Below are positions 28,157-35,309 of a stretch of 64,000 nucleotides of DNA, in pieces. The stretch's first letter is position 1. Each line of letters opens with the position of its first letter. The position numbers and the translations under genes are program-made. This DNA comes from an uncultured Geobacteraceae bacterium (GTDB taxonomy: Bacteria > Desulfobacterota > Desulfuromonadia > Geobacterales > Pseudopelobacteraceae), in contig CAJAFV010000043.1 of assembly GCA_903939115.1 (NCBI GenBank), positions 1-64,000 on the forward strand, written 5' to 3'. Under the pieces are notes generated by a model. That model saw only the letters and a program-made list of their open reading frames with translations. It ran no database searches and had not been told where the DNA came from.

Positions 28157-29965
28157 TTAAGGCATGTCAGTCTGCGTGGTTGTTTTCGTCTTCTCCAGCA
28201 TCGCTTGCAGTTTCTGACGATACGCCGATACGCTGATCTGGGCAGTAGTGTATTGTAATAATGCCTCCAGATAGCGAAGCGATGGAGTTGCGGCCGGTTT
28301 TGATCCGAAATCGGCGTAGATTAAAGCTACGACTGTGTTCGCACGTATGAGAGGAAAAAGGAGCACTTCCGGTTCCTCCATTCTGCCGATCAGCCGGTAA
28401 AGCTGGTGCGGCCACGTCGAATCGCTATGAAACCCAAAGTACATCTGCCCCGTTTTAATCACATCCTCAAAAATCTGCTGATCGTCAAGCGGGATTGTCA
28501 GATTGGCAAGGAGCTCCACTCCTTCGCCTTTTTCCCCCTTGATCCCGAAAGATTTTTCCGCGACAAGTTCTGATTCCGTCACCGAAAAAACAATGGCCCG
28601 CTCGAACAGTTCTATCAGGTATGCAAGGATAGCGTCGGCTATCTCCGTACGTGTCTTGCAGTCGCGCAATCGGTCTATGCAGGTGAAAAAGCGCTGGTCA
28701 TCGCTGCTGCGGTATTCCAGCGATAATGACCGAAGAAAGGCTCCCAGGCCTGAGCAGAAAGCAAGCGCCTGTAGTGCCGCTGATTCTTCTGCACATTCTT
28801 TGCAGGGTCTTGGAATAATGGAACGTATTCCGGAACTGAGTGTCTGCAGACCCAGAGATGTCCAGAAACGCGAACAGGCAATCAGCACAAAGGAAGCCTG
28901 TGGGTATTTCTGCAGCTCTGTGCAGATTTGTATCGTGTCATCTGTGGCCTCGTCATGCGGGACGTCAAGAAAAATGACCAGCTGTACCGTTTGACAGAGC
29001 AACAACCTGATATTGATGGCAAGTGAGGTTATGTTCTCCGCAGAAACCGAATAGACTCTTTCCTGAAAACAGGTCGACCGTACCATTGTCGACAGCATCG
29101 GTGACTTCGTAATCACTATCACCGCTATGTCCGGAGGAGGAATAGTTGTGTCACCTATCGGTGCTGAGCCTGTCAGTAACGTCACCAGTTGCCGCTGCTG
29201 CTCTTTTGCTGCAAAGGGAAACTCCTCAATAACGAGCTTCTTGACCGCATTCACTTCGCGATAGCCTTGATCGCTGCTCCGTTGAATCATCTCCCGTTGC
29301 GCTGTCAGGAGGTGCTGGAGTCCCGGCAGGGCATCACCCGGGTCACGTCCGTTTGATGTGATTGCAGGGGTATTGTTTCCCGGTTGTTCCGCATCCAGAT
29401 CCAGATTGGTGACGCCGGCAATACTCAGGATCTCATCCATGGTGCCATTACGCACCTTTTCGTCAAAGATACGTAATGATTCCATCAGGATCCTCTGAGC
29501 GTTCAACAGGATTCTTTGCGGGAACTTTGTCCTGGAAAAATGGTAGCCATCGGCATAATCGCTTTTGGCAATTTCCAGGGAGAATTCCCCTGTTTTCCAG
29601 GTCAGAACCTCAACAATGGTCATCTCGATTAATGATTCTATGCCGTTATAGGCAGCAGTTTCTTCAACCATGTTATGGTCGAGCAGTGTAATGACAAGTG
29701 GCTTGCGATCGTCCCCGGCATTTTTCTGAATATCCAGCACTTGATCCAACTGTTGTTCCGTTATTGCCCCGGCGCTGACCAGGACCTGCCCGATCCGCAC
29801 CCGGTTATTGAGGTAGTTGGCACTGACAAGATCTCCATCATGGAACACCAGTTGACTCTCCCCCTTTTCACTGGAGAGTCTCAATACACCTGATTTTCTG
29901 GTGCCATTCAGCAGCTGGATGATATCGATTATCGGGAAGCTGCCGAGATCGCCTTTTAGTGACAT
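28157..29965 (-). CDS. DUF4388 (PATAN) protein with C-terminal GAF-like domain
   Basis: 602 residues. The N-terminus (SLKGDLGSFPIIDIIQLLNG, TRKSGVLRLSS, LVFHDGDLVSA) is a DUF4388/PATAN domain, a regulatory module in signalling proteins of delta-type proteobacteria. A helical region and a receiver-like segment (about 290-400, PDIAVIVITKSPMLSTMV, VQLVIFLDVPHDEA) follow, then a GAF-like domain near the C-terminus (about 440-590). No catalytic output domain is visible. The start at 29965 has GGAG 10 bases upstream; the frame extends to 30073. Divergent from the Ig-like lipoprotein gene. Confidence 0.75.
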   Translation of the reverse strand: MSLKGDLGSFPIIDIIQLLNGTRKSGVLRLSSEKGESQLVFHDGDLVSANYLNNRVRIGQVLVSAGAITEQQLDQVLDIQKNAGDDRKPLVITLLDHNMVEETAAYNGIESLIEMTIVEVLTWKTGEFSLEIAKSDYADGYHFSRTKFPQRILLNAQRILMESLRIFDEKVRNGTMDEILSIAGVTNLDLDAEQPGNNTPAITSNGRDPGDALPGLQHLLTAQREMIQRSSDQGYREVNAVKKLVIEEFPFAAKEQQRQLVTLLTGSAPIGDTTIPPPDIAVIVITKSPMLSTMVRSTCFQERVYSVSAENITSLAINIRLLLCQTVQLVIFLDVPHDEATDDTIQICTELQKYPQASFVLIACSRFWTSLGLQTLSSGIRSIIPRPCKECAEESAALQALAFCSGLGAFLRSLSLEYRSSDDQRFFTCIDRLRDCKTRTEIADAILAYLIELFERAIVFSVTESELVAEKSFGIKGEKGEGVELLANLTIPLDDQQIFEDVIKTGQMYFGFHSDSTWPHQLYRLIGRMEEPEVLLFPLIRANTVVALIYADFGSKPAATPSLRYLEALLQYTTAQISVSAYRQKLQAMLEKTKTTTQTDMP

Positions 29966-30114
29966 TTTTCTGAATCTCCGGAAGGAATGCGCGAGTTTGA
30001 GGGTGACCTCTTTTACCATAGTTGATCTGTTGTCGTGAAGTGATAAAATTTTCATAGCCTGCTCTCGTAACACCTGTTATTATGCGCGCCATTACTGTTT
30101 CGTGGAGGGTCTGC

Positions 30115-31290
30115 ATGGTCAACCGGTTCTGGTTAATTTTATTTGCAATGCTGCTGCTATCCGGCTGCGGTTGGGACGGCACTCCGACCCGCCCCAATGA
30201 TTTCACCCCGCTGACGTCAATTACGATCAGTGCGGTTTCTTCGACGATTGCCAATGGAACATCCACCAAACTTACTGCAACCGGCCACTATTCCGGTCAG
30301 TTCAGCCGTGATGTTACCGAACAGGCGGTCTGGTCGAGCGCTTCACCTGCCGTGGCTGATTTCAAACATACGACTGCACCGAATATAAACCGGGTGACTG
30401 CCGTTGCTCCGGGGACTGCAGTTGTGACTGCAACGGTAGAGGGGGTATCAGCTCCCTACACGGTGACGGTGTCGAGCGCCACTATACAAAACATGACAAT
30501 CACGCCTGCCACTGTATCAGTGGCTAACGGTTTGACCACTCAGTTTGAGGCAAAGGGTGTTTTTTCGGACACATCAATCCAGAACCTGACTTTTGATGCG
30601 ACTTGGACTGTTACTAAAATTTCGGATCCGATCGCTGCGAGCATCAGTAACGACCCAGCCAGCAAGGGCCTTGCCAAAGGTCTTGCTGAAGGGAGTGCGA
30701 CTATTTCTGCTGCCTTTGGTGGTATCGCAACTTCTCCGACAGCCACACTTACTGTTACACCAGCGATACTGCAGTCGATTACGGTCACGCCGGCGAACTC
30801 TTCAATCGTAGGGTTCTCAAAAACAGTGACTTTCGTAGCTAAGGGTACTTATTCCGACGGAACAATTTCTGACATCACCACTGCTAGCTGGAGTTCATCT
30901 GCACCCGGCGTTGCTAGTATTATTGCCAGCAGCGGTGTCGCTACCACCGTTGCAGAGGGTACGACAATAATCACTGCCACTCTAAACGGTATCAACGGAA
31001 GAACAAACCTTACGGTTACGGCTCCAGTTCTGAGTGCAAATGGATTACAGATCACTCCGGCCAACCCAGTTCTGCCTGTCGGCACTTCTCTACAACTGGC
31101 GCTAAACGCAACATTTAATGATGGCTCAGCAAAGGATGTGGCAGCTAACGGCACCACTTGGACATCCAACAGCATAACTGCAACTGTCAACGCTACTGGA
31201 TTGGTTTCTGGGGGGAATATTGCCGGATCTGCCATTATTACAGCTCAGTATGGCGGACAATTCGCAACAACCATAGTAAGAGTACAGTAG
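30115..31290 (+). CDS. Lipoprotein with four bacterial Ig-like (BIG2) repeats
   Basis: 391 residues. The signal peptide ends in a lipobox (LLLSGCGW, Cys near residue 20). About four repeats of 85-90 residues follow, each with the BIG2 pattern: SITI..., an ATGHYSGQFSRDVTEQAVW-like segment and a GTAVVTATVEGVS-like end (also DGTISDITTASWSSSAPGVA and NDGSAKDVAANGTTWTSN). Such proteins are surface or periplasmic and often adhesive. The ATG at 30115 follows GGAGGG by 5 bases. The outer-membrane barrel gene follows after 33 bases. Confidence 0.88.
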   Translation: MVNRFWLILFAMLLLSGCGWDGTPTRPNDFTPLTSITISAVSSTIANGTSTKLTATGHYSGQFSRDVTEQAVWSSASPAVADFKHTTAPNINRVTAVAPGTAVVTATVEGVSAPYTVTVSSATIQNMTITPATVSVANGLTTQFEAKGVFSDTSIQNLTFDATWTVTKISDPIAASISNDPASKGLAKGLAEGSATISAAFGGIATSPTATLTVTPAILQSITVTPANSSIVGFSKTVTFVAKGTYSDGTISDITTASWSSSAPGVASIIASSGVATTVAEGTTIITATLNGINGRTNLTVTAPVLSANGLQITPANPVLPVGTSLQLALNATFNDGSAKDVAANGTTWTSNSITATVNATGLVSGGNIAGSAIITAQYGGQFATTIVRVQ

Positions 31291-31323
31291 CTTAAACTAT
31301 TTCCGCACTCAGGAAGGAACCAT

Positions 31324-31974
31324 ATGAAACGAATCTGCCGAATGATAATCACCCTCTGCCTGCCGCTGCTGCTCTGCAGCCCGGTTATGGCACAGCACTC
31401 GGGCCCCTACATCGGGATTTCCGCCGGGGGAAACGCGATGCTGGATGCGAAGAGCGATGACAGCCAGGGAGAATTCAAATTCACCTTTAAACCGGCTCTG
31501 CAGGGGAGCGCCGTACTCGGTTGGGATTTCGCGCCGGGCAATCCTGTCGGCGAGGGGCGGATTGAACTTGAATACACCCATCGCAGTAACCAGCTCGATG
31601 AGGTAACGTTTGCCGAAGGAACCTTCAAGGGGGCCGGCGACGTAAAGGCGGACAGCCTGCTGATTAACTTTTTCGGCGTTTACCCTGACAAAAAAAACTG
31701 GGTGCCTTATTTTGGAATCGGACTCGGGGTTGCCCGTATAGAGGCTTCTGATTTGAAGGTGACCGGTCAACCGTTGGCCACCGGTTCAGACACCGTCTTT
31801 GCGTACCAGTTGGGAACCGGGGTTGATTTCCCGGTGACTAAAAATCTGAATTTCGATCTTGGCTACCGCTTTTTCGGCAGCCTCCGCCCTGAATTAACCG
31901 AAGCAACCGGGCAGAAATTCAAGATGGATTATTTCTGTCACTCTGTTGTTCTCGGCTTGCGAGTAGGATTCTGA
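31324..31974 (+). CDS. Outer-membrane beta-barrel protein
   Basis: 216 residues. A signal peptide (MIITLCLPLLLCSPVMA, cleavage before QHSG) precedes an OmpA/OmpW-like eight-stranded barrel: GPYIGISAGGNAML, FKPALQGSAVLGWDF, GRIELEYTHRSNQ, SLLINFFGVYP, WVPYFGIGLGVAR and a terminal strand CHSVVLGLRVGF ending in Phe. Probable structural or minor porin protein of the outer membrane. AAGGAA lies before the ATG. Its TGA overlaps the proposed CTG start of the next gene. Confidence 0.88.
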   Translation: MKRICRMIITLCLPLLLCSPVMAQHSGPYIGISAGGNAMLDAKSDDSQGEFKFTFKPALQGSAVLGWDFAPGNPVGEGRIELEYTHRSNQLDEVTFAEGTFKGAGDVKADSLLINFFGVYPDKKNWVPYFGIGLGVARIEASDLKVTGQPLATGSDTVFAYQLGTGVDFPVTKNLNFDLGYRFFGSLRPELTEATGQKFKMDYFCHSVVLGLRVGF

Positions 31975-33908
31975 AGGCACTATTCCCCTTTGCAGCAGCT
32001 CTTTTCCTGTTCTTGACGCTCGCCTCCCCGGTTTGGGCCCAAGACAGTATTGCCACGTATCCACCCCTGCCGCTCGGTTATACATCAATAAAGATTTTCG
32101 ATAATAAGGGTCAGTTCGCCGGTAGAATTCTGCCGGATAAACGGTACTGGGTTACTATTGACCGAATCCCTGTTTTTCTGCAAAAGGCTGTCGTGGCTGT
32201 TGAAGATGCGCGTTTTTATGAGCATGGAGGCATCGATGTGCGCGGCATCGCGCGGGCTCTGGTGAAGGATGTCGTCAAGCGGCGTTTCGCCGAGGGGGGC
32301 TCGACCATCACCCAGCAGTTGATCAAAAACAGATATTTATCCAGTGAAAAGACTATCGAACGAAAATACGAAGAAGCCAAAATGGCTCTCGAATACGAGC
32401 AAAAGTACACCAAGAAGCAGATTCTGGAGATGTATTTCAATGAAATTTATTACGGCAATGGGGCCTGGGGTGTTGCCCAGGCGGCCCGGCTCTATTTTGA
32501 TAAAAGTCCGGAGGAGCTGAACGAAGCCGAGTGTGCCCTGCTGGCAGGTGTGCAGAAAAACCCGGCCCGCTACAATCCGCTCGGTAAATCTGCCCAGGTC
32601 ACCGGGCGGCGGGATGCCGTACTCACGCGGATGGTGACTCTGGAGATGATCACCCCCGCTCAGCGGGAGAAGCTGAGAAACCAGCGCGTTACCTTCACTC
32701 AGCCGAGTCAGGCGCCGCACTATATTGCTCATATCCGCAGTAAATTGATAGAACGATATGGAATGGGTGTTCTCGAGCAGGGTGGTCTTGAAGTTACCAC
32801 TGCCATGGATCTGGCTTTGCAGAAGAGTGCAGAAGTGGCGTTAGAGGAAGGGGTAAAGAAATTATCGCCAGGGCTGCAGGGGGCTTTGGTCAGCCTTGAT
32901 CCGGTTACCGGCGATGTTCTTGCCGCAGTGGGTGGGGTAGACGGTATTCGCAACTCCTATAACCGCGCATTTTTCGCCAAACGTCAACCTGGCTCCGCAA
33001 TAAAGCCGCTGATTTATGCCGCTGCCCTGGAAAAAGGATTTACGGCCGCCAGCTTGTGGGATGACTCTCCGGTTTCATATCCGAGTGGTGCCAATGAAAC
33101 CTGGAAACCACAGAACTACGGTAAGGAGGTCTACGGAGAGCTGAGCCTCAGTCAGGCCCTGGCATATTCCAATAACGTCATAGCGGTTAAGCTGCTGGAT
33201 GCCGTCGGTATCCCTTCTTTTGTCGAATTTGCCGGAAAAATGGGGTTGTCGATACGCGCGGAGAATGGTCTTTCGCTTGCGCTGGGGACAGACGAAGTGA
33301 CCTTAAGTGAGCTTCTGTTGGCGTATGCCCCACTCGCCAACGGTGGTGTGCGTCCTGAGGCGAGAACCATTATCAAAATATATGACCGCAAACGCAATGT
33401 CTGGGTCGACATCCCTCCCGCAACCCTCCCGGTTCTTTCTCCCGCTGTGGCTTTTGTTACCACGCAGATGCTCAAAGGCGTCATGACGTATGGCACCGCA
33501 AAAAGTCTTAAAAAATTCAGCCTGGCTCATCCCTCCGCCGGAAAGACCGGAACGACTGATGACTATCGCGATGCCTGGTTTGTCGGCTATACCCCGCAGA
33601 TTATAACCGGGGTCTGGGTCGGCTACGACAAACCGAAGCCCGGAGGGAAAGGTTTTACCGGCGGGGCGGTTGCTGCTCCGATTTGGGAAAAATTCATGCG
33701 TAAAGCGGTGGCAACCAGACCGGCGGCTGATTTTTCGCGCCCGGATACGGTGGTCTCTGTTGGCATTGACCCTGAAACAGGATATCTGGCGACTCCTGAC
33801 TGCCCGAAAAAACGGGATGAGTATTATCTCCCGGGGACGGAACCTACAGAGTACTGTCCCAGACATGGAAGAAATGACACACCAATACCAACTGTGCCGG
33901 ATGAATGA
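31971..33908 (+). CDS. Class A penicillin-binding protein (PBP1A-like), probable CTG start
   Basis: 645 residues. The glycosyltransferase domain (about 50-220) has AVEDARFYEHGGID and EGGSTITQQLIKN; the transpeptidase domain (about 285-590) has the nucleophile in RQPGSAIKPLIYA, the YSNN motif and SAGKTGTTDDYRDAW. It polymerises and cross-links peptidoglycan. An in-frame TTG at 32013 has no ribosome binding site and cuts into a hydrophobic leader. Reading back to CTG at 31971 restores KALFPFAAALFLFLTLASP then VWAQ, a complete signal sequence, and CTG overlaps the upstream TGA (CTGA). A cleavable-looking AxA site is unusual for a PBP, which normally keeps its anchor. Confidence 0.85.
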   Translation: MKALFPFAAALFLFLTLASPVWAQDSIATYPPLPLGYTSIKIFDNKGQFAGRILPDKRYWVTIDRIPVFLQKAVVAVEDARFYEHGGIDVRGIARALVKDVVKRRFAEGGSTITQQLIKNRYLSSEKTIERKYEEAKMALEYEQKYTKKQILEMYFNEIYYGNGAWGVAQAARLYFDKSPEELNEAECALLAGVQKNPARYNPLGKSAQVTGRRDAVLTRMVTLEMITPAQREKLRNQRVTFTQPSQAPHYIAHIRSKLIERYGMGVLEQGGLEVTTAMDLALQKSAEVALEEGVKKLSPGLQGALVSLDPVTGDVLAAVGGVDGIRNSYNRAFFAKRQPGSAIKPLIYAAALEKGFTAASLWDDSPVSYPSGANETWKPQNYGKEVYGELSLSQALAYSNNVIAVKLLDAVGIPSFVEFAGKMGLSIRAENGLSLALGTDEVTLSELLLAYAPLANGGVRPEARTIIKIYDRKRNVWVDIPPATLPVLSPAVAFVTTQMLKGVMTYGTAKSLKKFSLAHPSAGKTGTTDDYRDAWFVGYTPQIITGVWVGYDKPKPGGKGFTGGAVAAPIWEKFMRKAVATRPAADFSRPDTVVSVGIDPETGYLATPDCPKKRDEYYLPGTEPTEYCPRHGRNDTPIPTVPDE

Positions 33909-33935
33909 AATATAACTTATAAGGAGAACGCACTC

Positions 33936-35309
33936 GTGACACCACCTAAAAATGATTTTCTGCACTCCCTCTGGGATTTCTTCTGTTCATTGAAGCTGAC
34001 CATGTTCCTGCTGATCTCTCTGGCGGTCATCTCGATTATCGGGACGGTTATTCCTCAGGGGATTCCCGCCGAGGAATATCTCGCCCAGATCAGCCCCGCA
34101 AAAATAAAGCTGTACAAGGCCGTCGGCTTTTTTGATATGTACCATTCCTGGTGGTTCATTCTGCTGCTGTATCTGCTGACGGTTAACCTGGTCGCCTGCT
34201 CTTTCAAGCGTTTGCCGCATATCTGGAAGATGATTTCCCATCCGGTAACGACGCTGAGTGTCGGCCTGGAGAAGTCTCTTGCCAATGTGGCAACAATAAA
34301 AACTTCGTCTGAACCGTCTGCAGTCAAAGAGCGGCTTGTTGCCTTTCTCGGCGCGGAATTTTCCACTCCGGTCGTCTCCGAGGTTGATGGCGCCTGGCAC
34401 CTCTTTGCCCAGAAAACCCCCTGGTGCCGACTCTCGGTCTATTTCGTCCATCTGAGCATCATTATTATCTTTATCGGTTCCATAGTCGGCTCGCTCTTCG
34501 GCTTCAAAGGCTATGTGAATATTCTCGAAGGTGAAAGTGTCGCCAAAGTCATGACCCGCTCGGAAAAAGAGATCGACCTTGGCTACTCCGTACGCCTCGA
34601 AAAATTCAGTATGGCCAAATACCCGAGCGGAGCCCCGAAAGAGTTCAAAAGCATCCTGACGGTACTGGAAAATGGCAAACCGGTCCCCGACTACACGAAC
34701 GTACGTGTCATCGTCAACGATCCTCTTAGTTACAAAGGGATTACCTTCTATCAATCGAGCTATGGCAATGCCGGTAACTATTTCCTGACTGTCACGGACC
34801 TTGACGGCAAAAATCCTGTTAATCTGACTGTTTCCGGTCAAGCTTCCGTGAGCCTGCCCGACGGCAGCAGCCTGCACATCATGGAAGCGACAAAGGATAT
34901 TGCACCATTTGTTGCGGGGCTGACCGGGGCTGCTGCTCAGGTAGAACTGCACACGGCAAGCGGAAAAACGGAGAAGTTTGTGATCTACGCCAACCATCCT
35001 GAATTGAATATCAAGCACGCACAGGAACATGGTACCGGGCCGGTAATCCATTACAAGGGAGCTGAGGAACGGATGTACACCGGCTTGCAGGTGGCCAGAG
35101 ATCCCGGAGTTGAGATCGTCTGGCTGGGATGCTTTCTGATGGTTATCGGCATCTATATCGCCTTTTTTATGTCCCACCGTCGCATCTGGATCCGCATTCA
35201 GGATGGTGCGGTAACGGTCGGCGGCAATGCCAGCAAAAATCCGGGTTCCTTTCAGCAAACGTTCGAACTGCTAGTCGAGCGGCTTAAATCAGATCTCGGT
35301 AAAGATTAA
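33936..35309 (+). CDS. resB: ResB-like cytochrome c biogenesis protein
   Basis: 457 residues. Membrane segments are near residues 17-37 (LTMFLLISLAVISIIGTVIP), 68-88 (WWFILLLYLLTVNLVACSF), 170-190 (VYFVHLSIIIIFIGSIVGSL) and at the C-terminus (VWLGCFLMVIGIYIAFFMSH), with a large periplasmic domain between the last two. This is the ResB/CcsB layout; with ResC/CcsA it carries heme across the membrane for cytochrome c maturation. No ccsA lies next to it here. It starts at GTG with AAGGAG upstream and follows the PBP by 27 bases. Confidence 0.9.
   Translation: MTPPKNDFLHSLWDFFCSLKLTMFLLISLAVISIIGTVIPQGIPAEEYLAQISPAKIKLYKAVGFFDMYHSWWFILLLYLLTVNLVACSFKRLPHIWKMISHPVTTLSVGLEKSLANVATIKTSSEPSAVKERLVAFLGAEFSTPVVSEVDGAWHLFAQKTPWCRLSVYFVHLSIIIIFIGSIVGSLFGFKGYVNILEGESVAKVMTRSEKEIDLGYSVRLEKFSMAKYPSGAPKEFKSILTVLENGKPVPDYTNVRVIVNDPLSYKGITFYQSSYGNAGNYFLTVTDLDGKNPVNLTVSGQASVSLPDGSSLHIMEATKDIAPFVAGLTGAAAQVELHTASGKTEKFVIYANHPELNIKHAQEHGTGPVIHYKGAEERMYTGLQVARDPGVEIVWLGCFLMVIGIYIAFFMSHRRIWIRIQDGAVTVGGNASKNPGSFQQTFELLVERLKSDLGKD

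Follow-up and report, generated by a model that had tools for sequence, protein, structure and literature searches.

Reinitiation at overlapping stop and start codons has been established in E. coli and Haloferax (PMC6728339, PMC10666635). Removal of the Shine-Dalgarno (SD) sequence from five overlapping gene pairs of E. coli is reported to have abolished reinitiation in one pair and to have cut it by 60-90% in three, while it had no effect in the fifth, which proved to be uncoupled (PMC6728339). Excess IF3 inhibits reinitiation without an SD, and does so less when an SD is present (PMC2268962). Start-codon selection is described as generally favouring AUG, with weak starts tending to have stronger SDs (PMC5622118). 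For CUG, initiation has been put at about 0.86% of that at AUG, and its share at 0.024% of bacterial starts (PMC11497404, citing earlier work). In a dnaA leader, a CUG preceded by an SD gave a toeprint signal but was reported not to be used in vivo (PMC8443254). Automatic annotation is said to rely largely on just three start codons, ATG, GTG and TTG (PMC5472188).

The window, by which we mean the whole analysed stretch of 64,000 nucleotides, belongs to a draft assembly of 4.76 Mb in 99 contigs. The first gene of a likely operon on its forward strand encodes a Big_2 (bacterial Ig-like) protein (30082..31290; Pfam Big_2 1.8e-23), a homologue of which also lies 5' of the barrel gene in the related loci L006 and L007. 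The outer-membrane beta-barrel gene (31324..31974 in the list of open reading frames, forward strand; Pfam OMP_b-brl 1.3e-09, PagL 1.1e-08) encodes a protein ending in ...GLRVGF and has GGA TTC TGA as its last codons. The class A penicillin-binding protein (PBP) that follows on the same strand (31971..33908 if counted from a CTG) belongs to the PBP1A family, with a single chain that combines a GT51 transglycosylase domain and a transpeptidase domain (Pfam Transgly 1.3e-64, Transpeptidase 1.6e-28) and a score of 581.5 bits against TIGR02074, which passes the cutoff of 508.75. A ResB-like gene (33936..35309, forward strand; Pfam ResB 1.2e-99) begins 27 nt 3' of the PBP, with a GTG start and a strong AAGGAG-type SD.

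The PBP frame contains no stop from 31893 to 33908 and reads ATT CTG AAG across the end of the barrel gene. The first-pass annotation had proposed that the PBP starts at this CTG, overlapping the barrel stop as CTGA (31971..31974, forward strand). The overlap is present in the sequence, as it is in the related genomes G024 and G031: the CTG (31971-31973) and the TGA (31972-31974) share two letters, so that the start, provided that it is the CTG, overlaps a stop on the same strand. Inspection and a duplex scan located a weak SD-like stretch, GAGTAGGA, at the 3' end of the barrel gene (31961..31968, forward strand). While the intragenic SD was important in four of the five E. coli pairs (PMC6728339), the CTG is preceded here by GAG 7 nt upstream and AGGA just 2 nt upstream, with a duplex energy of -4.3 kcal/mol if the spacing may be as short as 3 and of -2.5 kcal/mol at a minimum spacing of 4. 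Translated from the CTG, the PBP would begin M-KALFPFAAALFLFLTLASPVWA|Q, and the codons at 31971..32039 (forward strand) would give what by eye is a complete signal sequence, ending in VWA-Q as had been claimed, with an AxA-type site of a kind common in the family.

The first ATG, GTG or TTG of the PBP frame is a TTG (32013..32015, forward strand) inside the hydrophobic core. An ordinary start at this codon, the first canonical one available, would leave the PBP lacking a proper signal sequence; a TTG also occurs in G024, displaced by one codon downstream. The duplex scan, however, found no SD pairing before TTG 32013 (energy 0), as the earlier annotation had noted when it objected that this start lacks a ribosome-binding site and truncates the hydrophobic leader. 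With only nine codons left before the apparent cleavage site, most of the core is lost and the signal sequence is cut to M-TLASPVWA|Q. A PBP needs export in order to act. Nor does the place of this TTG look like the family start, since in 118 of 124 orthologues a canonical codon occurs 24-41 codons ahead of the mature end. Relatives starting at the place of TTG 32013, which had been named as a finding against the CTG, are thus not the rule, and we regard an ordinary start there as highly improbable. A few orthologues (L009, L118) have an ATG or TTG near this position with some SD, with a stronger SD at an upstream TTG.

These counts come from a census of the order, which we take to be Geobacterales. 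The relatives search covered 58 genomes, counting that of the window, and each gave a PBP match, which in G056 was at paralogue level only (2.0e-52). Across the order, 127 of 141 genomes match the PBP at E <= 1e-150, and the 5' ends of 124 of these were examined; G087 (L215) was left out for its short upstream sequence, and G058 and G088 because the match lacks the N-terminal part. Among the named loci, L143 was excluded for its shortness, identical copies were merged, and 16 extra rows stand outside the 124. The start was taken as the ATG, GTG or TTG with the best SD located 24-41 codons before the residue after the Q, a mechanical rule by which G008 (L008) is listed with a TTG without SD despite an ATG with an SD further upstream. 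TTG was assigned in 75 orthologues (66 with a strong SD, frequently in the form GAAGGAGTAAnnACC TTG), GTG in 29 (25 with a strong SD) and ATG in 14 (13 with a strong SD), and six had no canonical start in range: the window (L001), G024 (L007), L041, L047, L054 and L257. In the last of these, a strong SD precedes a GTG that narrowly misses the range of 24-41 codons. That no more than six of the 124 lack such a codon, and that two of these share the CTGA junction, makes the observation more than chance.

The signal-peptidase-like site was surveyed in the same 124 orthologues. In 88 of them, A-x-A occurs within the 12 positions searched around the expected cleavage site, although some of these matches are due to chance, the stretches being alanine-rich, and [AVST]-x-A-Q is found near the site in 66; a relaxed cleavage pattern fits 123 and is too loose to carry weight. 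The view that such a site is unusual for a PBP holds against the paralogue L003 (same genome, PBP1A), which by eye has an ordinary anchor without one, but not within the order, where the site is common. A hydrophobic segment such as would serve as an uncleaved anchor is present, but most members have A-x-A in the cleavage region; if cleaved, the PBP would be less firmly held in the membrane.

Some orthologues depart from the usual arrangement in other ways. In L023, L026 and L027 (G022, G011 and G025) the open PBP frame reaches back 237-464 codons from the mature end, and the start is a GTG with a weak SD. Two orthologues (G086:C276 and G065:C136) have one in-frame stop in the match, TAG and TAA, respectively. 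Six orthologues from Holophagaceae or Geothrix (L153, L154, L162, L165, L166, L171) are 64-67% identical to the window PBP, and five of them have a GAAGGA-type SD before a TTG near the usual place. Their hosts presumably belong to another phylum, and the similarity suggests gene transfer.

Three of the orthologues without a canonical start in range have a near-cognate codon at the homologous start place behind AAGGAG, namely ATT in L041 (G010) and L047 (G036) and ATC in L054 (G043). In addition, L054 has an ATG at -47 that directly adjoins an SD-like GGGAGG. In the PBP tree L041 has no resolved place within the genus, L047 groups with L028 and L029 (95/83) and L054 belongs to another family, which makes more than one ATT/ATC event likely. 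With seven codons allowed, a crude start caller chose CTG 53, ATC 37, ATT 21 and ATA 11 times out of 314; near-cognates thus often stand behind SD-like stretches by chance, and an SD before one of them proves little. What counts as evidence for a near-cognate start is a position homologous to the family start. Restricted to ATG, GTG and TTG, the same caller gave 24, 5 and 4 for 33 of 42 genes in the window, and 151, 44 and 59 for 254 of 397 genes in the named loci, PBPs included.

It could be imagined that the PBP is held at a deliberately weak start across the whole order, mostly TTG with a strong SD, drifting in separate lineages to ATT, ATC or a barrel-coupled CTG, and that IF3 or the translation of the outer-membrane protein sets the rate of PBP synthesis, which would tie cell-wall synthesis to outer-membrane growth. 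We consider this broader reading doubtful. ATG is assigned to 14 PBP orthologues, which speaks against over-reading the weak-start theme. The ResB-like gene, used as a control, starts with GTG in 27 of 28 loci and with TTG in one (G008), the window included, among 28 of 30 matches displayed. A conserved non-ATG start is thus not special here, although all 28 loci are from the window's genus and form a narrower sample than the PBP census. Two further control genes with TTG starts were considered: for gene 40930 the starts were not alignable (13 of 14 loci viewed), and gene 246 had a match at E <= 1e-60 only in the window's own genome among the 58.

The PBP tree was built from those 54 of the 57 loci (L001, L006-L061) that have at least 500 residues each. 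The window, G024, G031 and G008 form one clade (100/100), in which the window is sister to (G024,(G031,G008)) with 99/93, the pairing of G031 with G008 being weak (96/28). The PBP of G024 (L007) is 84% identical to that of the window, with a nucleotide difference of 16% over the mature part. Both genomes have the barrel stop TTC TGA, the CTGA overlap and the signal sequence, and neither has a well-placed canonical start: no ATG, GTG or TTG stands in frame before the hydrophobic core. In G031 (L006), the CTGA is followed by 33 extra in-frame, stop-free codons before the core; they contain TTG and GTG with weak SDs, so that G031 need not use the CTG. In the G008 genome the barrel has no match at E <= 0.001. 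The upstream neighbour of the PBP there lies on the opposite strand, and an ATG with AAGGA upstream opens the PBP frame, as expected if the barrel junction had been the start signal. The place of the window's CTG reads CTG AAA ACA CTC in G008, where the CTG is apparently internal. From the CTG through the signal sequence, the alignment of the window with G024 and G008 is gapless, with K after the CTG in all three, and a more distant orthologue (L012) has GTT CTT AAA at the matching place, which makes the CTG look like an old internal leucine codon.

The expectation that close relatives would show ATG or GTG in place of the CTG thus failed in the three nearest ones, of which two have CTGA (G024, G031) and one an internal CTG (G008). 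As a start, the CTG gains support from the comparison with orthologues as a whole, which points to it as the probable one. It is the main candidate in two species only, and the bare CTGA arrangement is known from two genomes, a metagenome-assembled genome (G024) and a draft genome (the window). Where a barrel gene lies closely 5' of the PBP in other genomes (G003, G004, G014, G035), the PBP has its own SD with GTG or ATG.

The draft status of both assemblies might raise the suspicion that a canonical start is hidden by an assembly or sequencing error, the other finding that was to speak against the CTG. However, the same junction and the same absence of ATG, GTG and TTG before the core recur in two genomes that differ this much in the PBP gene, and the barrel frame is open across the same bases in both. 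The absence in G024 argues against an error, which we hold to be extremely improbable, and for a non-canonical start.

Which non-canonical codon is used was examined by scanning the PBP frame for eight codon types, over a stretch that begins 36 codons ahead of the junction and ends two codons past it. Just two codons are start-like in L001, L007 and L006 alike, namely the CTG overlapping the stop and an ATT (31893) that lies 26 codons further upstream. The CTG is partly forced by the barrel itself, as nine of 24 barrel homologues, the window's included, end in TTC TGA; what counts for the CTG is its position together with the absence of a good alternative start. Among the alternatives, ATT 31968, ATT 31893 and CTG 31935 (the latter two inside the barrel gene) could serve instead, and ATT starts are known from infC (PMC5472188) and pcnB (PMC13009471) of E. 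coli; L041 and L047 even carry ATT at the family start site. Yet ATT 31968 is GTT in G024 and CTG 31935 is GAA there. ATT 31893, although kept in all three loci, has a weak SD (-2.0 in the window, -2.4 in G024) and lies 79 nt before the barrel stop, overlapping barrel codons. A start at one of these codons is therefore unlikely in our view.

It may also be asked whether the PBP is being lost in the window species, with its start gone and hardly any translation. The loss of both SD and start, the weakness of CUG and the other candidate starts in two of the four clade members (G031, G008) would fit such decay. On the other side, the 631 codons from TTG 32013 are open, dN/dS is 0.08-0.12 in all six clade pairs (dN 0.064-0.078, dS 0.66-0.85; 611-624 codons), and the PBP has no close match in the window's genome besides itself, the others being 36-45% identical over parts. 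Ongoing loss is thus very unlikely: the PBP is conserved and not decaying in the clade, and the purifying selection on the PBPs of the window and G024 makes a non-canonical start likely in both. Over the 23 codons after the CTG, dN and dS are 0.419 and 0.501 (window-G024), 0.345 and 0.974 (window-G008) and 0.29 and 0.245 (G024-G008). These leader codons, a stretch too short for a firm test and hydrophobic by eye, show no clear purifying selection on exact residues.

Other mechanisms at the junction were considered and rejected. A -1 frameshift fusing barrel and PBP was discarded since GGA TTC TGA is not slip-prone by eye. RNA structure as a control element was dismissed because three stretches (two from the window, one from G024) did not surpass their shuffled versions in folding (z +1.36, +1.20, +1.05). 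A promoter just before the PBP was not retained either, with five promoter-like sites against 3.2 expected in 29900-34100 on both strands; terminator-like sites numbered three against 4.8 expected in the same region and on both strands.

We propose, with a probability of roughly 0.7, that the PBP is made by termination-reinitiation at CTGA, at a low level that depends on the barrel, after loss of a spacer, the SD and the old start. Ribosomes ending the barrel at the TGA would slip back and restart at the CTG with initiator fMet-tRNA. As the CTG shares the letters of the barrel stop, PBP production probably depends on barrel translation. The dnaA leader mentioned above is reportedly that of Caulobacter; weak CUG initiation and SD-poor reinitiation in the cited work lead us to predict that PBP output is low. 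Loss of the spacer, of the old SD and of the initial ~9 codons would have brought the 3' end of the barrel gene directly against PBP codons, whereupon an internal leucine codon was presumably taken as the start. The tree topology (99/93) suggests that the junction predates the split between the window and (G024,(G031,G008)). Judged from tree and alignments, the simplest history is probably a loss in the ancestor of the clade, with G031 and G008 having changed later.

Since annotation leans on ATG, GTG and TTG, the PBP would probably receive an annotation that lacks a functional signal sequence, and the starts of other genes may be miscalled likewise. If the proposal is true, the locus is a natural case of a stop-codon overlap rescuing a very weak start codon and a simple system for testing whether reinitiating ribosomes are less strict on the start codon than fresh ones. 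Stop-start reinitiation and non-canonical starts are known already, each separately; on the sequence data, the PBP is a new candidate instance of the two combined. Among titles and abstract beginnings in open-licence PubMed Central, we noticed no case of a CTG-started penicillin-binding protein, and the term CTG does not occur in the main texts of PMC6728339 and PMC10666635.

The overlapping stop-start pairs of those two studies (ATGA, GTGA, TGATG) have the same -4 nt overlap on the same strand, with the start on the stop codon (PMC6728339, PMC10666635). The junction described here differs in its CTG start and in that its coupling is putative, and the partners, an outer-membrane barrel and a PBP, are not evident subunits of one complex. 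Known non-canonical starts include infC (ATT/ATC/ATA), pcnB (ATT), cvfC1 (AUU) and ccpN (AUA) of S. aureus and sigR (GTC) of Streptomyces. With infC-type genes the PBP would share a weak start kept in relatives and the expectation of low output and IF3 sensitivity (PMC5472188, PMC13009471), but the bare CTG is found in two species only, unlike the conserved starts of these genes. The reported cvfC1 and ccpN starts have extended SD motifs, whereas the CTG has a weak SD whose role the overlap would take over. The closest comparison is with the TTG-started class A PBP orthologues of the order, which are the same gene with the same signal-sequence design and commonly an AxA-type site; they differ from the window in that, of the 124 orthologues, 66 combine a TTG in range with a strong SD and a further 38 have GTG or ATG with a strong SD.
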